Origin: Hypholoma sublateritium FD-334 SS-4
Lineage: Eukaryota > Basidiomycota > Agaricomycetes > Agaricales > Strophariaceae
Reading direction: 5' to 3'
Assembly (NCBI GenBank): GCA_000827495.1
Contig: KN817562.1
Location: 111,037-175,036, forward strand
DNA: 64,000 nucleotides
In this document: positions 16,827-29,532 of the stretch, in pieces
Numbering within the stretch: the stretch's first letter is position 1
Layout of the letters: every line of letters starts with the position of its first letter
The notes under the pieces: model-generated
The model's database searches: none
Told to the model about the DNA's origin: nothing
The model's input: the letters and a program-made list of their open reading frames with translations, nothing else
Made by a program: the position numbers and the translations under genes

Positions 16827-18923
16827 ATGGCGTCGTCTGCACCCTCCCAACACACCGTTGAATTCTTCAGAAATGCAGCCCACACAGTTATACACGGGGC
16901 CAATTTCATGAGCATCGCCAACTCGGCAAGTAAGCCCTGCTGATACCTACGAAGCGCGCAAGATTTGACCCCCGAGCCGTGCAGCGCGAAAGGACGGCTT
17001 TCAGCTTCTCCAAGAGCACGTCGCGCCCGCCGCCTTCCACAACTCGTGGCAGCGCGCTGACCCGCCGCGCTGCCACGCGCACACGCGGGAGGCCGTGCTC
17101 GAGGAGCTCTTCGACTGGATTGTGGGGCACATACCGCGCGAGGCGTGGATGGCGTGGCTCAACGGCGCGGCGGGCGCTGGGAAGTCCGCGATATGCCAGT
17201 CCTTCGCGGAGCTGTGCATCGCGCGGGGCGTCAAGGCGGCGAGTTTCTTCTTCTTCCGCACGGACGCCTCGCGAAACACGCTCGACCCAGTGATTGCGAC
17301 CCTCGCGTATCAGATCATTCAGCTCTTCCCAGAGACGAAGGAGCTCATTGTGCGCACCATCGAAGCGAACCCGCTGATCTTCGAGCAGGCGTTCGAGACG
17401 CAGCTCGACGCGCTCATTGTCGCGCCCATCCGCCGTCTCCAGCAGGCGGACGCAAGTTTCACGCTTCTGCTCATCATCGACGGCCTCGACGAGTGCACAG
17501 AGGAACGGCCCCAAATGGTCCTCGTCGAGGCGTTCGGCAAGCTGCTCCGGAACAAAGACCTCCCGCTCCTCGCGCTCTTTGGCAGCCGCCGCGAAAGCCA
17601 CATCCAGATGACGTTCAACGTCCGGCACGTGGACGGCATCCTCAAGCAGATGCCGCTGGACAACAACTACCAGGCGCCGGCAGACATCCGCCGTTTTCTG
17701 GTCGAGCGGTTCGCCGACATCAAGCTCACCCACCCGCAGAACAAACGCCTTGATTCCGCGTGGCCCGCCGCAGACCACGTGCAGCAGATCGTCGAAAAGT
17801 CATCGGGGCAGTTTGTGTACGCCTCAGTCATCGTCAAATTTGCCTCGATGCCGTCCCCGAATCCGGCGACGCAGCTGGACATCGTCCGTGGGCTGCGCCC
17901 CGCCGGGCGCACGACCCCATTCGCGGAGCTCGACGCACTGTACCGCCACATTTTCTCGCAGGTGAAAGACATCGCGCCTGCGCTCAGGCTTCTGGCGTAC
18001 AATATACTCGGGTCGGTGACCTACGTGAAAAGGGCGTTTTATTTCTTTGACATTAGAGAAGACGAGGCGGAGAGTATATTTGCCCCCCTGGCATCTGTCC
18101 TATCTTACGATGCGGAGACGGCCCGGATCACCTTTCACCACACATCTCTCCCCGACTTTCTGAAGGACAAAGAGCGCCCACAGGAGTACTGTATCTCTGA
18201 GATGGGCACTGACCTGTCCATACTATGGTTCAAAAATGCAATCTCAGGGCGCTTCAAGGACCTGTCGGAAGGCACGCAACTGCTCCACAAAGACATATTC
18301 ATTATTTGCTCATTTCCTTTTTCTAGATGATCAAAATTTTGATATTCTTAGATTCCTCGACTGCGCAAAAGGCTGTCCCGACCTGCGTGCTTTGATTCTG
18401 TACTACCCTCCGCCTCAAACCCCTTGGGCGTACAAAACCGATTTTTTCCCGCCCGTCATCCTGCGTCGCATCCGCGAAATCGTACGTGCTCATTTATGAA
18501 TGTAGCTATTCCACCACAGTGATTTTGCAGGACTTTGGCGACAACGGGGAAGCGTACCGCACCATTTCCGACCGGATAGTCCGACATGTGGCAGAAGTAT
18601 ACCCCCATGTTCTGCCGGACCTCGCGGCAGAGTTCACCACGATGACCAGCGACGAAAGGGTCCCGACAGAGATGCGCGATGGGCCAGAATCGGCGCCGGT
18701 GTGTTATGCAGATAGTGTTCCAAAGTCGCCGATATTATGGCTGCCGCTCAAAACGCTCGATGGACGAGCCACGGTAGCAAACGCAGCCTCCCTGCTTACA
18801 TTGTGGGGCACGCTTCCTGCGGGCTGTTTCAACTTATTCCATCGCTGGTATACCTCACCAAGTTGGCCCCACCCAACACCAGGGTCCCCGGATACACTGG
18901 AGGATGAATACGAGGGTGTCTGA
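16827..18923 (+). CDS. NACHT NTPase, copy 5
   Basis: This is a complete NLR-like NTPase of 645 aa. Exons are 16827-16929, 16985-18271 (1287 nt), 18327-18481 (155 nt) and 18531-18923. Exon 1 holds EFFRNAAHTVIHGANF. Exon 2 holds RKDGFQLLQEHV, PPRCHAHTRE, the Walker A GAAGAGKS, the Walker B LLLIIDGLDEC and FHHTSLPDFLKDKERP. It is subfamily A and has high GC at third codon positions. The exon 2/3 junction needs a GC donor (AAG|GCACGC) because no GT lies nearby. If that intron is retained, translation stops 19 codons later, without exons 3 and 4. The C-terminal exon is unlike the others and lacks the basic WF tail. Confidence 0.87.
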
Positions 18924-19215
18924 ATCTTGGCTTTTGTTCACGTTCACGCGACTTTGGGGCTATTTTTCGGAAATTTGTCCGTTTAGTCCACGGCCTTTTC
19001 GACGTAGCCCAGGGCGCTAAACCAGCCCGTGATTTTAACTCGTATTATTCAAGTTTAGTCACTGCGTGCCAAAAAAATTGCTGGTATTCGAAGCGTTGTC
19101 TGTTGGCAGCTAAGTCATACTCCGTCACAGACTTCTTTCGGTGCTCATCAAAGTGCATCCATAAGCATGAGAAGGAGGTAAGAGGGAGAGTTTGAAGGCG
19201 ACACGGGCATCTGTA
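18924..19215. other. intergenic up to the 8.7-kb element
   Basis: This is the 3' flank of NACHT copy 5. Nothing is recognised in it. It ends in CTGTA just before the left terminal repeat of the mobile element. Confidence 0.4.
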
Positions 19216-19241
19216 TGGCAGTTATATTGTAAAATAAATAG
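19216..19241 (+). repeat. left terminal inverted repeat
   Basis: TGGCAGTTATATTGTAAAAT and the bases that follow match the reverse complement of 27924-27949 at about 21 of 25 positions. The preceding bases are TA. Confidence 0.65.
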
Positions 19242-19259
19242 AAATCCACACAACCAAGC

Positions 19260-19520
19260 TCTTTTTGCATATTTTGACACATCTTAGTGCCTCATTTCAT
19301 AATTTAACGGAAGTTCCAACTGCGATTATTACTTTTCACATGTTCAATAATTTCTTACACAAGTTTGTAACATCCGCCAATAAATCACATATGTTCTACC
19401 AAAAAATACACATGTGGTGATTTCCAATAAGTTGCACAGGATAGTTCAGAAATATCATTTTACACTTGTTGGCAATAAAAGTTACACATGTTTAATATTC
19501 GAAATATATGTTGCGCAGGT
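19260..19520 (+). repeat. left subterminal ACACATGT motif cluster
   Basis: About six variants of the motif YACACATGTT occur here (for example TTTCACATGTT, TTACACAAGTT, ATACACATGTG, TTACACATGTT). Their reverse complements cluster at 27670-27900. Such mirrored subterminal arrays are typical transposase-binding sites in DNA transposons; that role is inferred here. Confidence 0.65.
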
Positions 19521-19864
19521 ATGGTACCTAAGGATTTCGGCGTCGGTGAGGCTTGGCAAAATGATGTAATCAGCTCTTGGCTATTTCTATTGGTACGTAT
19601 TTCGGTCTTTGTTATTCTCCAAAAGGGATTCTTCAGTCTTTTATTGGATTGATTTGATTGCCAGGTCTTTATGTACCCGCCTTTATTTTATGGGTGCTCT
19701 ACCCGCACTGAGTGGGTCTGGATGAGCATTTGGGAGCCCCAGTGCTTACTTTTATCAAGGTTAGCCTCCGTCGCCCAATCCAACCCAGTCGATCAAACCT
19801 TAAATGTTTTGCGGCATCCACACAACATTTGACTGTCACAGGGTCAACAACTCCTTTCTACAAA

Positions 19865-22748
19865 ATGGTCGAGTGGACTGACCTCGGTAAATGTTCCAAC
19901 CCTCGGTGCACAGATGAAGGATCCTGCTTGTCATTCTATCCAGTCACTGCCGAGGAATATGTCAATCCAATGCCACAAAAATGTCTGTGCGGCTGTCGTG
20001 GAAACCAGCATTTGCGTTTGGACGCGCCAACAACAGCCAGCACAGCTGAGTTGCCCTCCGAAAATGGCCCATCAGCACCACCCCCCGGCAGTGTGCCAGC
20101 TGTGCGCTCAGTATTTCTATTTGATCAATATAAACATTTATCTAAAAATATTCCGTTCAGTTCACACCAGTTCCCACCACAACAGCGTTTCCTGAAATAA
20201 ACAATGCCACTTCCAAAGCTAAGAATCCACCTGTGAAATCATTCCTTGATATAGCAAAGGAAAGGAGTGCAGCTAAGCAGCGCCGCGAGTCCATGAATAC
20301 ATCAGGACCCGGAGTCGGAGATAACCCCAGCTCAAAGGGTATCCCATTTGATCCTTCGTCAAAAGTTTGTCTTTAAATTTATCGATGATTTTGGTGATCT
20401 CAGTGCTCGGAACTACTATAGATAAACGAACAGGAGTGGACAAAGCAGACTAATCAAGCCCCAAAGAAGAAGAAAAAGAGCTCTTTGAAATCCCGCACCA
20501 CATCTGCTTCCAGTGCTTCGAGGGCCTCACAAACGAAGAAAGTTGGGGTCAAAAAGCCATGGAGTGTCAACCTGTTTCCGGTGGCGTCAGCTTTCAAAAC
20601 GAGGGAAACGTCAATTATCCAGCCGCGAGAACCACAGTAAGTCTATTTATTGTATCCCATGATATACCGAGTCTAATGTTTACTAATATGAACTTGTGTC
20701 AGCATGGACAGTTTTGCGTTTATGGGCTATTGTAAAACCATCGAGCTATATAGCAAACCTACGTCTGCCGAAATCTATGATGCTGTGGTGGCAGCTTTCA
20801 GCCCAACCTACCCGATGGAGAACTGGCGGCTTCTGTTCCGACAAGGGATGGGAAGGGGTACAGATGGGGTCCTTCGTCTCTCTGCAGAGAATTCAAAGTC
20901 TCTGACACTCGCAAATATCAACCAGTAAGCACCTCTGTCTGGAATAAATATTTACGCGATGTTTTGATCATTTTTAAAAAATATAGGGCATGCGCAAAAT
21001 ATCGTGCATCACAGTTCAAGCGCGCAATATTCATCCTCCTTGCTGCTGGGTGCCCGGATCTGCCTCTTGACAGCATGGGTCACTTTGAACCAGTCGAGTA
21101 TGAGAAGGAATCAGCTGGTGATAAAAGTGAATCAGACGCGGTAAAAGGAGAGTCTGGAGATGGCGCGGCTGATGCTGACAACAGCCAATTTGTAAGCAGC
21201 ATCCATACAGCGCACTGCTTTCATTGACTGTCATCCTCCCTCTCCACCCAGACGTACTCAACTGGTCCTTCTGGCACCGACAACCAAGCTGACAATGCCT
21301 TCCCACATGCCGCTTCAGACTGGGGCGGTGATGCCACTCCCGAACTGTCTAAGGAAGAAATACTAGAGAATAATGAGATAAAACGGCAGGGAGATCTTCG
21401 AGACTTTGGTGAGATTTTGTCTGAGTTTTGTCTCGTTGTATTCTCAATAATTGGGTGTGAAAGAAATGTCGTCAAGAGTTTGTTCTCTCCAACGCCTTTC
21501 AATCAACATATGTGAACCGAGATGGGAAACAGATTTGAAACAAGAGCGTACTGATTGGGTGAGTGACAATTTTTTTTCTAAATGATACCCTTCTGACCAA
21601 TGTACTACAAGTGGCCAAGCCGCTCAATGGGCGCGTACTCAAACATTATGAGCCAGCTTACAGTTTTCAAAACAAGAATGGCTCAAATACACGATAATTT
21701 TCTGTCCGACCCATCGCGCTCTTTGATGGTACTGTGCGAAGAGAGTGTCAACGTCCTTCAACCCTCATTCCACTTTCTCTTTAACCTCGAGAAGCTGAAG
21801 AGATCCGGTGGAAGTTCCAATGACTTCTACAAGCATTTATCCACCGATTTCTGCCTTGGGCCATGCGGACTTGGCCCTATCATCAACTACCTGTCCCAGT
21901 TGTATGATTCGATAATATCGGCCTTTGATAGGCGCTGCATGGTTGCTGATGAGGTCAAAATTTGCATAACGAAGATCAACATCATTGCTGGACCTCTCGA
22001 AGCTCTTCTTGTCGCATTTCGGTCATCCATTCCTCGTGCCCTTTACGATCCTAAAGGCTTCTCCGACCTTCAAGACGCAATCAAAAACCATAGGGCTTGC
22101 TTTAGTGTTCGTTTTCTATCATCATCTGTAGACTGTAGTATATGTTGACTGACTTGCCCTCATAAACTCTTAGGCTGCAACCGAGGACGACTTTCTCAGT
22201 GTTCTCAAGCTTTCTCTCATAGGCGATACTGTTAACTGTTTTCGGGCAGCACTGGTGACCGACTTCGGCTCTGTCACTGACTACAGTGAAATAGGTACTG
22301 ACAGGTTCTTCGATGGGGAAAATGGCCTTGATGGGCTGTTGAATCTCTTTGAGGAGGTTGTGGATTCGTTCCCAACCTCAGACAGTCGCTATGACGAGTA
22401 TATGCTTCTATTTGCTCGATTTGGAGAGATTCTAGCGCAGAGAATTGTGAATTTCACCGAGGTACGCATATACCTCTGAGCTTAATTCACGATCTAAACA
22501 AACCAATCTTCCAGAGTCACAGTCCTGGTGGCAAACGCAAATACCATTGGCAGGAACCTGACAGTGATGCTACCGATGACCATCACACGGTAAGGTTTAT
22601 ATCCATCTACGGCTGCAAAACATTATTGACCATAGCTCATGATCTTTAGAGCTCGCCAAAAAGGCCCAAAAAAGAGGGAAATGAAAAGAAGGGAAGTTAT
22701 AATACCCGTAGCAGAACTCACAAAGGAGACAAGTCGGATGACCAGTAA
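19865..22748 (+). CDS. unrecognised 11-exon element-borne protein
   Basis: Eleven exons with GT-AG introns read through in one frame to a stop, giving about 761 aa: 19865-20110, 20161-20364, 20422-20636, 20703-20924, 20987-21191, 21252-21408, 21479-21558, 21612-22106, 22174-22461, 22515-22589 and 22650-22748. The N-terminus has closely spaced cysteines (CSNPRC and CLCGCRGNQH), possibly metal-binding. Exon 3 has a lysine-rich PKKKKK nuclear-localisation-like stretch. The middle is globular and mostly helical in character (MDSFAFMGYCKTIEL, FLLLAAGCP-type segments), and the C-terminus is charged with KRPKKE. I cannot name the family. Its place inside a TIR-bounded element, next to an integrase and with an intact frame, suggests a conserved element function, perhaps DNA binding or transposition accessory. 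Confidence 0.7.
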
Positions 22749-22793
22749 TATCTGATTATCTATCAACGCTGTTCATTATCTCTGATTCATGAA

Positions 22794-23537
22794 ATGATGT
22801 CCAATAGACCCGAATCCATGGCGAGTGAAAATGATTCTGCATTGTCATCGGAGGAGTCGATATATGAGTATAAGCCTTGTAAGTTCTCATGCAATACCAT
22901 GTGGAAATGAATTTTCAGCCACCGGTACTCTTTAGCTGCGGACCAAAAGACCAAGTTTGAGAAGGACCCTTTGGCAGATTTCGGCTCCGATGATTTCGTT
23001 TTTCCAGATATGTTCCCTCCCCCCGAGTCAGCTCCTAACGAGCCAGCTGCTGACGAGCCAGCTCCTGCTGAGCCCACTCCTCGAGAACAAATGCCATATC
23101 CCCAAGCAGAAAACCGACGCGAATATACTTCGCGTGATCCTCCCGCACCTAAGCAAGCGCCTAGGCCGAAACCACGCCCCAAACCGCGCAAAGCAGAAAG
23201 TCCGAGCCCGAAACAACCCTCCATTGCCTTTGTACCGCAAACCTTGACGCGGTTTGAGCGAATGATGAAAATGTCCCTTCCGAGCATTTTGAGGGAGATT
23301 GTCAGGTCATTACCAGAACCAAAGGTGTCATGGGATACCTTCCAAAAGGAATACCCCACAGTTCGAGAACAGCGTAGGCAGCTGCTTCGGGTGCGTGTTT
23401 TGGTGTCACCGATGTTGGTAGCTTTACTCATTATCGCTATATAGTGTTGTCACCCTGATAAGACTGTCAATCAGCCAGCTGCGTGGATCGAGTTGGGAGG
23501 CGATTTCACTCGTGTTTTGACCTGTAAGACATCATAG
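22794..23537 (+). CDS. small Pro-rich acidic/basic element-borne protein
   Basis: Three exons (22794-22878, 22936-23390, 23445-23537) give about 210 aa. The order is an acidic Ser/Glu-rich start, a Glu-Pro-Ala repeat (PNEPAADEPAPAEPTP), a Pro/Lys/Arg-rich stretch (PRPKPRPKPRK) and then a helical segment (TRFERMMKMSLPSILREIV). It begins only 45 bp after the stop of the preceding gene, on the same strand, so the two may be co-expressed. The last exon ends right where the GC-richer captured block starts, so the original C-terminus could have been lost. No family is recognised. Confidence 0.55.
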
Positions 23538-23619
23538 CTTATTGTACCAAAATCACTCCTACGAAAACTGTGGTACCACTAGAAATACATGCGCTAGTGC
23601 TACCACCATCATCCTGGAT

Positions 23620-24386
23620 TCACGCTATCGTGAATGTGCTTCGCCGCCTGCGTGCGCGGCCCTTGCTCTGCGCCCAGCTCGCCATGTTCTGCGGCAAATT
23701 CCAGCAAATGACGCTCCCGCAAGCCTGGATATCGATACCCTCCTCCGCGACGGCCGTGCTGATGATCAAGTTCCTCTCGCCCGACTTGAAGTCCGCGAGG
23801 ACGACCTCCTGCGAAACCTCGCGCACAAGCCCACGTGTGATGTCCATCATCGAATGGCGGTGTGTCGACTCAGACGTGCCGAGCAGCGTGCCCGTGCTGA
23901 ACACATCGCGCGTCGCGGGGTGGTGCGCGAGGACCTCTGCGAGCGCAAGTACCGCCGCTGAACGAACACAATACAGCTGTACGTCTCGCCCTCCGCCTCC
24001 GCCGCTGCTTTCTCCGCGAGCAGACACGCGATGAGCGCCCGCGTCTTGTCCGACAGGTCATCGATGATGTCTGGTCCGTAGTACGACACGGGCGATGCGA
24101 CTATCTGGTCAAGCACGCTGAGGAGGTACCCCTTCTCGGATTTCTTCCAGGTGACCATCATGTTGTTGTACGGGTTCGCGGCGGCGCGCACACGGTCGAG
24201 CACGCGCGAGACGAACCAGTCCGCGGCCCAGGGCCCGATGTCCGTGCAGATGTCTATAGTACTGTCCAGGTTTGTTTCAATTTCAGTGTAAAATTCGGTC
24301 ATTATTCGATTATATGGGTGATTGTCGACAGCGTGAAACTTGAGGTGTCGACATCCCGCCGTGGTGTTGGAGTTTAGTTGATACAT
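23620..24386 (-). pseudogene. Dicer-like helicase fragment, frameshifted
   Basis: On the minus strand, 24386 down to about 23960 encodes a segment that looks like the insert between the helicase lobes of a fungal Dicer (LDSTIDICTDIGPWAADWFV, then YSCIVFVQRR). A frame change near 23957 leads into helicase motifs V and VI: NLIISTAVAEEGIDIQACGS, then VICWNLPQNMASWAQSKGRA and RRRRSTF. An in-frame stop follows at once. The DEAD lobe, PAZ and both RNase III domains are missing, so it is a non-functional fragment of an RNA-interference gene. It lies antisense to the transposon genes. The Dicer assignment rests on the motif order and on the RGRA-type motif VI; another SF2 helicase is the less likely alternative. 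Confidence 0.75.
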
Positions 24387-24517
24387 AGCAATTTCATGTA
24401 TGTATGTATGTACATTGTACAGTACATACTACATAGATTCTCGACGTCAGCGAGCTCAGCGCAGAGCCAAGGTGTCCTCTCACCGCTCCTGACTCAGATG
24501 TGCCGATCTCGGGAACA

Positions 24518-24735
24518 CCTCTGGCGCGGCCCACGGCGGCGCTGAAACGACGGTCAGTCAGCATGTTACATAAAACTTAGCTCAACGGCACTCACGAACG
24601 GGGACAGGAAGATATCCGCGAAAATACCTCTGCCGCGGCCCACGGCGGCGCTGAAACGACGGTCAGTCAGCGTGTTACACAAAACTTAGCTCAACGGCAC
24701 TCACGAATGGGGACAGCAAGATATCCGCGAACGAA
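24518..24735 (+). repeat. two-unit tandem duplication, period 109 bp
   Basis: Unit 1 starts at 24518 (CCTCTGGCGCGGCCCACGGC) and unit 2 at 24627 (CCTCTGCCGCGGCCCACGGC). They are nearly identical up to GATATCCGCGAA. A short partial repeat, AACGAAGATATCCGCG, follows unit 2. Confidence 0.85.
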
Positions 24736-26012
24736 GATATCCGCGAACGACTGGCGCAGCGTGGCGCTGATCGGATCGTGCGGCGGAGTTCAAGTAAGTG
24801 ACGAGGTGGCAAACGCGGGGGCCGCCGCGGGATGCTGCCACGGAGAGCTTGACGGAGAGGAGTGCAGCAGCACCCGAGAGAGAGTAGCTCGCTCTGGCGC
24901 CGCTGTGCGAACTGCCTGTGAAAGATGTAGTTAGATCTAACATTGTACGGTTTACGATGCACCCAAGTCCAAAACTACCTTGTCGCACAGCGACGCCTTG
25001 ATGTCGCAGAAAGCATTGGAGAGTGGCGGGGTGGTCAGCAACGAGGAACCTGCGCAAGTGACAAGGCCCACACTCTGCAATTGCGGCCAGGGGCACAACA
25101 CTTCAAGATCCGGCATGGCCAAGATGAGACGTGCTGTACCCCGGACAAGCAAAGAGTCGCGCGGGCTGCGCAGCGTTGCAAGGACCAAGGTTGAGGGGTG
25201 CAGGAAGGGTAGACGAAGTGAAAAGACCACGTCACTGCCACGTGATATCCGGGCCGGGCCAGTTCTCGCGCAAAGTGAACTTTTGTAGCATTTGCAGTAG
25301 ATCATGATGCATTTAATGCCGCCCATCGCGGCGCTGGAAGCGTCGCCGCCCCTCATGAACCCTATCTGCGGCCAAAAAGTAGCAAGCCCGCCTTCCCCAC
25401 CCATTGCTACTCAAGCACATGAATCACCCGTCGCCGCCGCCGCCCATCGTGAACACTACACCAGACACGCGTCTAAACCGGAGGGCTGCAGCGCGCATGT
25501 TCAAGATCTGCAGCTGGGTCGTTACATACGTAAGCCCGTGCTCTGCCTCTTTATTCGCGCCGCTCACTCGTATGCGGTCGGCGCACTATGCGCATGGGAT
25601 TCGACACCGACGGCGCAGATGAGTCGGGCGTTGGCGAGTGCATCATGAAGTTGACGTCGTCTGCGTCCGACACACGCATCTGGGTCTGGGTGCGGGTTAT
25701 GGTGATGGGAGTAATTGGCGGCATGCGGCGTATCATAGGTGAGCCAGTGACGTGGTGGTCCAGTGGCGGTGGAATGAAGGCAGGGCTGTACTCGGACGCA
25801 GGAGACGAACGCTGAAAAGTGTCGGCATGCTGGAGGTGCTAGTGTTCATGGAGATATCATTGCCAGACTTTGTGTGTTTGCAGTGTATTGAATATAATGA
25901 GAAAAGCCTACAGCAAGAGTACGCGCCAATTTTAAGCCAAAAATAGAAAGCACGCACTCGGCGAGGTTTGGGTACAAAATTACGCGCTCGGCCCTGTCTC
26001 CTCTTCACCACG

Positions 26013-27667
26013 ATGACTTCAACCCCCAATGAAACCGATGATGTACAACTCTTGCTGCTTCACTGCGGGGAAATTCTCAAAGAGGCTCGCTTTATACTAT
26101 CATCCATCCCAAATGTAGACGAATCAAGTGTTGAGGGAATCCTTCGAAAGATGCATTCTGTCCATCAAATTTTAGAAAAATTGGAAGATCCATGGATAAC
26201 AAAGGCCAGTATCGACGGGTTGATTTCCCTCGTACTTGATGTCTCAGCCCCACTTCAAGTATGGCTCGACACTCCCCGTCCCAGCTACCAACCACCCCGA
26301 TGTCCACAAACTCCAGGTCGAGGCCGGCCCCGCTATGATATCGACCTTGATCGGGCAGCTGAGTTACACGACATGGAACTGTCCTGGCAACAAATAGCTT
26401 TGGCTATGGGGATCAGTAGGCAAACACTGTACAACCGCTTTGTCGCGAGTGGTCGATCCACAGCACGAAGACCATTTACAGACATATCTGACGACGACCT
26501 CAATACACTTGTGATTGACATTGCACGCCAACATCCACTCTCAGGATCTGTGGTCATGCGGGGCCATCTGGAGTCCATTGCAGTTCATGTCTCCCTAAAC
26601 CGAGTGAAGGAAAGTCTTCGGACAGTGGATCCTATTGGTGTTAGCCTTCGGTGAGCTTCATATCTTCTCATAGCCGCTACATCATTACTAAACTATGTAT
26701 TGTAGCTGGAGTACAGCAATCAAACGCCGTGTATACAAAGTTCGGGGAAGTAACGCCCTCTGGCACCATGATGGAAATGAAAAGTTGCGACCCTGGGGTT
26801 TTTACGTCCATGGATGCATTGATGGCCACTCGCGCCTTGTGATATACCTGAAATGCTCCAACAACAAGAAAGCTCGAACTGTAGAACAATTCTTCACAAT
26901 TTCTGTGGGTGTCTATGGATGGCCGAGCCGCATCAGAGGAGATTTTGGGACCGAGAACAACGGAGTAGAAAGGAAAATGATTGCGAAGTGGGGTGAGCGC
27001 CATCGGGCTTATCTGCGTGGAAGGTAAGCAGTATATGTATCACTGCCTTGGTAACTTTACTAATAAAAACAAATCTAGATCAATTCATAATGTTCGGATA
27101 GAAAGGCTTTGGCGTGATGTCCGGCGGGACACCCTGGAATTCTTTCGAACAATATTCCTCCATCTCGAGAAAATCGGCCTCCTTGATATGGAATCCGATG
27201 TACATCGTGTATGCCTGTTTCTCACCTATCACCATCGCATTCAACACTCTCTCGATGAAACTGTTGCTTCATGGAACCTCCACAAGGTCAGAACAGCTGG
27301 GAACAAGACACCTCTCGCCCTGTACCAGCTTAGCCGTGAGAAAGCGATCAATCAAGGATACTGGACGGGTGATCCAGGAGACAATGTAGAGTCTGTTAGA
27401 GACAGCTATGGGGAAGATCCAAATGAAGGATTCTCCCCTGCGGACGAGCTTGCAGCCGACCCTCAGGCAGCAGATTATCGTGACTTTGAAAGTGACATAG
27501 AGATGGAGCGCGAGGCAGGTATATTTGTGAACGATGATGAAGAAATACGGGCAGCAAAGGAGTGTCTTGATGGATATGAATTTGAAGCTGATGATGGAAA
27601 CTTTGGGATAGATATATATTGTAATTCTGTAGCCTGTCTAACAGCTCTCATGTACCCAGAAGTCTGA
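26013..27667 (+). CDS. DDE integrase-like transposase
   Basis: Exons 26013-26650, 26706-27023 and 27079-27667 give 514 aa. After a helical N-terminus comes a helix-turn-helix (about residues 125-150, SWQQIALAMGISRQTLYNRF). An integrase core of the retroviral-like fold follows: LWHHDGNEKLRPWGFYVHG with the first Asp, then IDGHSRLVIYLK, RGDFGTENN with the second Asp, and HNVRIERLWRDVRRD with the catalytic Glu. The C-terminal part is acidic. This kind of core is found in many eukaryotic genomes as a stand-alone integrase family. Its likely job is cutting and joining the ends of the 19216-27949 element. All three catalytic positions and the frame are intact, so it may be active. Confidence 0.85.
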
Positions 27668-27669
27668 TA

Positions 27670-27900
27670 GCAACATGTGTAATAAATTGACATGACATGT
27701 GCAAAAAAAGATGATTGCTACTTGTGCAACTATTTTCAACATATGCAATTTTTTTTGTAAATATATAGAACTTGTTGAGAACGTGTCAAGACCTTGTGTA
27801 CATTTCTGAAATTAGCTTGCGTAAAATCTCTGGGCGATTGCACAATTTACCATCCTACTATTCTCTACATGTGTCAAATATTTACATGCGCGAAAATTCA
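27670..27900 (-). repeat. right subterminal ACATGTG motif cluster
   Basis: Variants of ACATGTGYAA recur (AACATGTGTAAT, GACATGTGCAAA, TACTTGTGCAAC, AACATATGCAAT, TACATGTGTC, TACATGCGCG). They mirror the cluster at 19260-19520 in inverted orientation. Confidence 0.65.
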
Positions 27901-27923
27901 TTTGATATGCGCTAAAAAATGCA

Positions 27924-27949
27924 ATACTTTTTTTACAGTATAACCGCCA
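27924..27949 (-). repeat. right terminal inverted repeat
   Basis: Its reverse complement, TGGCGGTTATACTGTAAAAA, pairs with 19216-19241. TA follows directly at 27950-27951. Confidence 0.65.
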
Positions 27950-28300
27950 TAAAATTACCACTGGAAAACAGCCACAAAACGGAATATATTTCCCTCTCGT
28001 CTCGACGCTCGTTGACTAAACAATTTCCCAACCACCACACGCCTGTTTATAGTATGCTCAAAAGTATTCGGCGCTTCTTTTACTACCTGTCACAGGAAGC
28101 TCCGTATAGTCCTGAACTGCAGACGCAACAGGCTGGTCTGACACAGCAACCTGGTCAAGGAGGATATAATTAATTTCCAACATCCCTCCATTGGCCGGCA
28201 AATTTCTCCGCACAGTGCATAGGTATTCGAAGCCTTATTATGCTTATCATATATTTTATTGAGTATTACTTTGGACAACCTGCGTTACGAAGGAGCAAGC
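27950..28300. other. intergenic between the two mobile regions
   Basis: No supported gene. It separates the right end of the 8.7-kb element from the repeat array at 28320. Confidence 0.35.
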
Positions 28301-28319
28301 GGGACAAAGTTACGGAAAT

Positions 28320-28480
28320 ATGCAGAAAGTTCTCAAGTTAACTTGTCCGTGAAAGCTAAGTAAGTAAAGCTAGCTTGTGTGAAGAAGCTAAGTAAGTAAA
28401 GTTAACTTCTGCGTGAAAGTTAAGTAAGTAAAGCTAACTTGTGAGTGAAATCTAAGTCAGTTAAGTTAACTTATTGATGC
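28320..28480 (+). repeat. degenerate tandem array, about 40-bp unit
   Basis: Four diverged copies of a unit containing GAAAGCTAAGTAAGTAAAGY followed by TAACTTGTG are visible. Related words (GCTAACTT, AGTGAAAG, AAGTAACTT) appear inverted at 40100-40190. Confidence 0.7.
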
Positions 28481-28633
28481 ACTACAGACTCCATGTACAT
28501 ATGAAGTGCATCCGACCCACACATCTAATGAAAGCGGGACGGTCGCACATGAGATTCACACGGCCGCAAGATCTCTGTTCTGGATGAACAGTACCAATAC
28601 AGCTGCCCATAAGCACGAGATACCCAAATGAAT

Positions 28634-28955
28634 GATTGGAATCTGTTAAGGTGTCTCTGAAGAGCGCATTCTTAGATTTTCTAATAATACTGGTCCCTAT
28701 GGGTCGAGCTACAACATGAATTAGCATCACAGACACCCGGGAGGAGGGTCACACGACTTTGAGTTTGCGTACACCTCTAAGATCTGTACTTCCAAGTACA
28801 GCTTCCGATAGACACCGGCTGCTCAATCAAACTACTAGAACCTATTGAGGTGGTTGTAATTAGTAGATACTATTAATTTCATATAATACTGGTTCATAGG
28901 GGATGGGCTACAACATGAATTAACACAAGAGTGGGCATTAAAGCGGCTCAAGAGG
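28634..28955 (+). repeat. two diverged direct repeats of about 110 bp
   Basis: Positions 28634-28745 and 28842-28955 share ATAATACTGGTYC, then GGGCTACAACATGAATTA and flanking similarity. No coding sense is seen. Confidence 0.55.
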
Positions 28956-29532
28956 TCGCGCGAGCTGGTTATAAATTTCATGACGTGCTCCAGCCATCTT
29001 GACAATCATTTCTGTTAGTCTACATGCTGGACTACATATATAGCTCACTGGAGAAGTTGGCCCATCTGCATTGCAGATATCGCGCTCTCATTATGGTGGA
29101 AATTGGTTGTGAGAACATATAGTACACAAGTTAAATTGTCAAAGCGAAATGTCGGAAAACTAGAAAGTACATAATCAGCTAAGTCCATAAACGGGAGCCA
29201 TTTTCCCATGATTAGGACAATGATTATGACGTTTTTCGTGATCACTTCGACCCTACCAATAATCAGACTACGTGGGGTCTGATTAGAGCGTGCCGGTCCT
29301 GATCACGCGATTAGATTGCATGATCAGATTTTCTATAAATAGATATTAATACACATTGACTGAATCTGAAATCGCCTAAGATTTGTTTCTGAATCTATCA
29401 GAATCACAATGGCAAATATATCTATTAGGTGAAGGCTCTGCAAACAGGCATCCCATAAGAACAATGTCACACTTGAAAACCAAACATATTCAAAATATAT
29501 GATGAGCAAATTGCAGTGCACGATCAGATGTG
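28956..29532. other. non-coding, with TGATCA-rich part
   Basis: AT-rich DNA without a supported gene. Positions 29240-29340 hold several TGATCA/TGATTA words (CTGATTAG, CCTGATCACGC, GCATGATCAGATT), like those at 39880-40030. Confidence 0.4.

Follow-up and report, generated by a model that had tools for sequence, protein, structure and literature searches.

An IS3EU-type transposon of Hypholoma sublateritium with a large partner gene and captured Dicer fragments

Termini, integrase and sister copies

The window analysed here is a stretch of 64,000 nucleotides from Hypholoma sublateritium FD-334 SS-4 (assembly GCA_000827495.1, contig KN817562.1, positions 111,037 to 175,036). It contains an integrase gene and a second, larger gene, here named gene A, which lie in the same orientation between terminal inverted repeats (TIRs) and are separated by a spacer (Table 1). 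Judged from its sequence, this interval is a real DNA transposon of the IS3EU superfamily and not a new type. What appears to be new is an IS3EU lineage with a large selected orphan partner; the kind of transposon itself is already known.

Table 1. Features of the element in the window and further copies in the genome (aa, amino acids; E, expectation value).
Feature	Position	Strand	Details
IS3EU-type transposon, terminus to terminus	19214..27951	.	8738 bp; TATGGC..GCCATA ends as in eight other paired elements
Left TIR	19214..19234	+	TATGGCAGTTATATTGTAAAA; 19/21 bases match right TIR
Left subterminal array	19337..19491	+	CACATGT at 19337, 19409, 19485, within inward-facing CACA repeats
Gene A	19865..23537	+	14 exons, 968 aa: 19865-20101, 20161-20364, 20422-20636, 20703-20924, 20987-21191, 21252-21408, 21464-21558, 21612-22106, 22174-22461, 22515-22589, 22650-22744, 22808-22878, 22936-23390, 23445-23537
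Predicted intron joining the 761-aa and Pro-rich genes	22745..22807	+	63 bp; position and phase as in C16 copy; P0121 fused
Last exon of gene A	23445..23537	+	HPDK, J-domain-like end; profile against J-domain chains, best E 0.0089
Captured host Dicer gene fragments (C20)	23627..24435	- (Dicer sense)	pieces 23627-24254, 24255-24282, 24283-24335, 24354-24435; 97, 100, 98, 94% identity
Captured fragment from C25:181580-181827	25608..25854	.	97% identity over 248 columns
Integrase/transposase	26013..27667	+	514 aa; exons 26013-26650, 26706-27023, 27079-27667; catalytic D235, D292, E327
Right subterminal array	27673..27873	-	ACATGTG at 27673, 27695, 27867 (inward CACATGT)
Right TIR	27931..27951	-	reads TATGGCGGTTATACTGTAAAA on the minus strand
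Short copies	C9 (twice), C32, C42, C122, C150		six, 864-1009 bp
C134 copy	C134		5.7 kb (5705 by coordinates), long N stretch
C16 copy	C16:398616-406760		8145 bp, both genes, perfect duplication GAAAGG

The two TIRs, including their leading TA, are identical at 19 of 21 bases. A preliminary description of this DNA had matched inverted termini around the genes by hand, and these are borne out: its 19-mer has exact matches only at the two element ends in the 46-Mb genome, and at up to 2 mismatches it is found at 12 places, compared with 1 for the reversed control. A search of the whole genome with the pattern TATGGCAGTTATAYTGTGCA at up to 3 mismatches gave 27 matches, compared with 2 for the reversed control. 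These comprise nine elements with both ends, including the window copy, and nine single ends (four exact, five at 2 or 3 mismatches). Each of the 18 paired ends opens with TATGGC, having been found with a pattern that itself starts with TATGGC and tolerates 3 mismatches. For the C134 copy, the ends and the parts free of N were used.

Perfect 6-bp target duplications flank seven of the nine paired elements, and that of the C134 copy agrees at 5 of 6 bases (GACGCG/GACGTG). Short non-autonomous relatives with clean 6-bp duplications thus accompany the element in the genome. When joined, the flanks of the C122 copy are 99% identical to C2 and C48 along 223 bases without a length difference, and the empty site, read at C2, has a single CAGTGT where the filled C122 site has two, which sets the target duplication at 6 bp. 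Duplication of 6 bp on insertion is therefore a property of the terminus family, as observed in the sister copies and one empty site. Because the duplication stands outside the TATGGC ends and the empty site has a single copy, the TA is assigned to the element. Consequently, the true ends lie two bases outside 19216 and 27949, where they had been placed, and the flanking TA is part of the TIR rather than a target duplication, the empty-site alignment proposed to confirm a TA duplication having revealed CAGTGT instead. The TA on both sides of 19216-27949 could also be read as the mark of a new superfamily with a TA target duplication; given TATGGC at every paired end with 6 bp duplicated outside it, and the contradicting empty site at C2, this reading is extremely improbable.

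The integrase gene had been described as an intact DDE integrase-like gene, which holds for its three open exons. Its core matches PF24764 (E 2.6e-60), and Pfam returns integrase and helix-turn-helix (HTH) models only. Among NCBIfam models, only IS481 (E 2e-14) and IS3 (E 7.4e-6) are listed at E ≤1, both below cut-off. The N-terminal 235 aa contain only two cysteines and thus no HHCC. The protein searches for both the integrase and gene A scored only those candidates that share most words with the query. For the integrase, 171 proteins were found at E ≤0.001 among 7999 candidates scored; of the 120 matches listed, the best named ones are from Agaricomycetes (Agrocybe pediades, 68% identity), and lower-ranked named ones are from Rhizophagus, cod, mussel and whitefly, with many entries nameless. 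No match to exon 1 of the integrase was found among PDB sequences, and among viral contigs neither the integrase nor gene A had a relative.

These features agree with published accounts of IS3EU, a superfamily named in few papers. The accessible text of PMC10045372 describes a DDE transposase near IS3/IS481 without HHCC, TA..TA ends and usually 6-bp duplications, all as observed here. Rust IS3EU families end in TAYGG..CCRTA according to the available part of PMC12730594, which resembles the TATGGC..GCCATA of the present element, and IS3EU has previously been annotated in the mushroom genus Ganoderma, as stated in an excerpt of PMC8955403. The proposal of an undescribed transposon type is therefore abandoned, since the termini, the duplication and the integrase all agree with what has been published on IS3EU, the comparison on which the assignment is based. 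The IS481EU elements of parabasalids also have an integrase related to IS481. However, they differ in encoding a single protein and, in the portion of PMC10045372 that covers them, in having duplications of about 4, 15 or 25 bp.

Gene A and its linkage to the integrase

The exon boundaries of gene A were predicted from the open frame, from introns that are mostly common to the C16 copy, and from the relative P0121 of Ephemerocybe angulata. An 11-exon gene of 761 aa and a separate small Pro-rich gene had been reported in its place. The former is indeed open through 11 exons to an apparent stop, but amounts to 763 aa and is most likely part of the longer gene. Because the intron at 22745-22807 removes the apparent stop, and because the Pro-rich part of the C16 copy has no in-frame ATG, the two predicted genes most likely form the single 14-exon gene A. 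P0121 is likewise fused. A separate Pro-rich gene is rejected on account of the intron common to both copies together with the missing in-frame ATG in C16. Gene A of the C16 copy encodes 963 aa in 15 exons as modelled, with exons 6-7 uncertain.

The first 763 aa and the last 210 aa of the gene A protein were used separately in the protein searches. P0121 is the sole long relative found (E 1.1e-50, 25% identity), being the one hit from 7986 scored candidates, and three nameless database proteins, out of 214 candidates, match the last part. Pfam gave no match at E ≤10 for both gene A parts and P0121, while P0124 yielded DUF4560 at E 0.13 only. PDB sequences showed no match to P0121 and one C-terminal piece, and no plasmid matched exon 8 of gene A. 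The structure model of P0121 is too poor to use, with a mean predicted local distance difference test score (pLDDT) of 36. Exon 8 is modelled as an all-helical bundle (pLDDT 67), for which Foldseek returned 324 matches at E ≤10, none of them at or below 0.001 and the best at 0.49.

The protein nevertheless has conserved ends. The Cys-rich N-terminus attributed to the partner gene is supported by C10, C15, C21, C40, C42 and C44, which are invariant across the window, C16 and P0121 sequences together with G43, Q48 and H49. HPDK is invariant at the other end and occurs in all three gene A-type sequences, lying near the C-terminus in P0121. A C-terminal profile built from these three sequences matched 42 PDB sequences at E ≤10, of which 38 are recognised as J proteins and three are S-adenosylmethionine synthases. 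On the C-terminal piece of P0121, Pfam DnaJ reached E 0.0094 (16.5 bits, cut-off 27.8), and it gave no match on the corresponding pieces from the window and C16. The C-terminus is thus best described as putatively J-like rather than as a J domain. Lys-rich stretches of gene A agree, as an impression from the sequence, with nuclear entry, and in view of these stretches, the linkage and the selection described below, the protein is probably nuclear.

Gene A and the integrase follow each other in the C16 copy as they do in the window copy, with order and orientation unchanged, between matching termini. A transposon that carries an integrase and a large selected partner gene, as the preliminary description had envisaged, therefore recurs in the genome. 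Over 938 codons, the two gene A proteins share 52% aa identity, with a ratio of nonsynonymous to synonymous differences (pN/pS) of 0.43 (bootstrap 0.39-0.48) and values of 0.29-0.63 in 100-codon stretches. The integrases share 84% over 508 codons, with a pN/pS of 0.12 (0.10-0.15). Both comparisons leave out codons that contain gaps or N. As pS is near saturation (0.73 for gene A, 0.71 for the integrase), these ratios are rough, although clearly below 1, and both genes are, by this measure, under purifying selection. Near-saturated pS also implies that the copies diverged long ago, yet both genes are open. The argument that intactness implies selection holds for gene A, whose ratio was obtained between two such old copies. 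The element is apparently autonomous.

Partner genes of other kinds are known from IS3EU elements. In the accessible text of PMC12730594, rust and truffle families carry TET/JBP, and in TET-positive IS3EU the TET gene lies between the transposase and an alpha-kinase gene of opposite orientation, whereas here an orphan partner shares the integrase's orientation. Neither TET/JBP nor alpha-kinase was retained as a candidate partner here, gene A having no Pfam match at E ≤10 and the integrase showing integrase and HTH models only. The set of an integrase and a 968-aa orphan gene in the same orientation was not found in the literature searched, Repbase and most subscription journals lying outside its scope.

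Subterminal arrays and captured host DNA

Mirrored ACATGTG arrays near the ends had been noted beforehand, and the 3+3 copies are present. Within the terminal 300 bp, CACATGT is mirrored in this way, and none of 5000 Markov shuffles reaches six copies. The motif was, however, picked post hoc, and when the best 6-mer of each shuffle serves as control, the count of 6 merely equals the 95% level, so that the arrays are weak by this measure. The same control places L040 and L047 above the 95% level, the window copy, C16, L045 and C134 equal to it, and L038, L049 and L056 below. Because only two of nine elements exceed that level, the strand bias of CACA is the firmer evidence. Inward and outward copies number 111 and 25 over nine elements, and 64 and 15 in five less closely related ones (binomial P 2e-8, for elements that are kin and matches that may overlap). 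The net CACA excess of the window copy is 12; the 91 control stretches taken from the window reach no more than 8.

The CACA core is extended differently between copies, to CACATGT in the window copy and to CGCACA, GCGCAC, CACGCA or CACACA in C16 and the short copies. The termini of the window copy have 33% GC and an observed-to-expected CpG ratio of 0.70, while those of the other eight have 44-46% GC and ratios of 0.98-1.34. Given this difference, CpG loss may partly explain the motif difference.

A transposon-encoded second protein is also known from the VANDAL elements (MuDR) of Arabidopsis. There, the targets of VANC form repeats that vary between related elements, according to the portion of PMC5735166 available. 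Gene A might correspondingly be mainly a sequence-specific anti-silencing protein that binds a changing subterminal array and keeps the transposon unsilenced. This would agree with the inward CACA core and its differing extensions, as well as with the much faster divergence of gene A than of the integrase. On the other hand, VANDAL belongs to another superfamily, gene A matches no named family, the motif difference may stem from CpG loss in the window termini, and the faster divergence may equal plain weak constraint. This role, taken by itself, is possible but rather doubtful.

The spacer between the two genes measures 2475 bases, part of which is captured host sequence. Four pieces match C20:473684-475568 in order. 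No microhomology is seen at the three junctions between them, where 303, 131 and 657 bases of the source are missing, and the last junction contains 18 filler bases. The donor on C20 is one of four places where the genome has a Dicer_dimer match (here 70.9 bits), and RNase III-like sequence, recognised by eye, lies downstream of it. In PDB, a captured helicase open reading frame (ORF) has 116 matching sequences at E ≤0.01, from Dicer, RIG-I-like and other helicases. The sense strand of Dicer is the minus strand, placing the pieces antisense to the element's own genes. Positions 24436-25607 are GC-rich with an internal duplication and, at the sensitivity applied, match nothing else in the genome. 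One spacer ORF gave SapB_2 in Pfam (16.7 bits, below the cut-off of 21), and Rfam gave no match at gathering score across 18000-29000. The C16 spacer shows weaker matches, at 70-84%, to C14, C55, C41, C89, C27 and C71.

It appears that the element took up host DNA between its two genes, including the pieces of Dicer, during past transposition or repair. Sharp-edged host gene fragments inside a DNA transposon are likewise the mark of Pack-TYPE elements (Pack-MULE, Pack-CACTA), as far as the accessible text of PMC8616336 describes them. The present case differs in being an apparently autonomous fungal IS3EU element whose window copy has no target duplication. The duplication around the whole structure that characterises Pack-TYPE elements is present at the C16 copy, whose spacer matches host sequence at 70-84% only.

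It could be imagined that the element strikes host RNA silencing twice: gene A, as a J-domain-bearing accessory protein, would load on and co-evolve with the CACA arrays, and the Dicer pieces would, on read-through from gene A, give rise to small or antisense RNA directed at the Dicer of the host. We regard this combined scenario as highly unlikely. A transposon with pieces of a host Dicer gene nonetheless offers a concrete case in which to ask whether captured silencing genes matter or are there by chance.

Weighing the element and the role of gene A

Overall, we consider it likely that the element belongs to the IS3EU superfamily and carries a functional, co-mobilised gene A, with clearly less confidence in any particular role of that gene. 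The integrase would recognise the TATGGC.. termini and insert the element via a 6-bp staggered cut. Gene A would encode a co-mobilised accessory protein, probably nuclear. By analogy with other two-gene transposons, its leading candidate role is to act with the integrase on the inward CACA arrays, either in transpososome assembly or in anti-silencing, and its J-like end might recruit Hsp70. The element makes two matters testable, namely the role of accessory proteins in integrase-type transposons and gene capture by IS3EU in fungi; the strand-biased subterminal arrays are candidate gene A binding sites that can themselves be tested.

Several observations speak against this assessment. The window copy shows no target duplication at its borders (CATCTG / AAATTA). 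Gene A was detected at only two of the eight integrase loci of the genome (C45 and C16) and not at the six others, which are distant. Some of its splice sites are ambiguous, concerning the first intron and, in C16, exons 6-7. The J match lies below the Pfam cut-off and rests on the short HPDK region. Concerning the arrays, neither the window copy nor C16 has a single 6-mer in its termini above the best-of-shuffle 95% level, and the net CACA excess of L040 (8), L049 (7) and C134 (4) lies within the control range.

The missing duplication bears on whether the structure is a pseudo-composite, in which termini from different insertions enclose the genes by chance. Its right flank (27952-28111) is a dispersed repeat that matches C62 at 88%, the match starting at the element border, and the left flank of the window copy was not found beside the C62 repeat. 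However, gene order, orientation and terminus type are all repeated in the C16 copy, which is flanked by a perfect GAAAGG duplication, and 19 of 21 bases agree between the two window termini, which leaves such an origin very improbable. We infer that the IS3EU element in the window instead lost its duplication via a later rearrangement at one border. No empty site of the window copy was found in the genome.

The failure to detect gene A at most integrase loci bears on its status. In this genome, the expected co-occurrence of both genes between such TIRs is seen at C45 and C16, gene A not being detected at the other six loci. Together with the uptake of host DNA by the element, this could indicate that gene A is a host gene which was trapped between the termini as a passenger and plays no part in transposition. 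Nevertheless, outside the two elements no host copy was detected in the genome, bar two weak hits, one with the first 763 aa on C56 (E 0.006) and one with the last 210 aa on C81 (E 0.032), neither of them at an integrase locus. In addition, gene A is open in two copies with near-saturated synonymous sites, and the search for relatives yielded only one long protein, itself an orphan of similar kind from another mushroom. A mere passenger is thus unlikely, and a co-mobilised partner is preferred.

The six distant integrases show 27-41% identity, and no terminus pair passed the search around them (10 kb per locus). Two of these loci, L034 (C173) and L035 (C59), are near-copies of each other over much of their length. 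Sequence beside their integrase looks by eye like what we take to be a TET/JBP dioxygenase, and L034 presumably also holds a KDZ transposase. Another integrase lineage is represented by L031 (C18) and L033 (C10), where the ORFs around the integrase, one of them upstream and divergent, are collinear between the two loci and have no match to gene A; this lineage perhaps carries a different partner set. Finally, two IS3EU insertions, at L030 (right flank of the C16 copy) and L056 (left flank of the C150 copy), are adjoined by a GC-rich repeat that carries TTGCGCGC arrays and has ..GCCATA at its end; this repeat could represent an additional short family within the superfamily.

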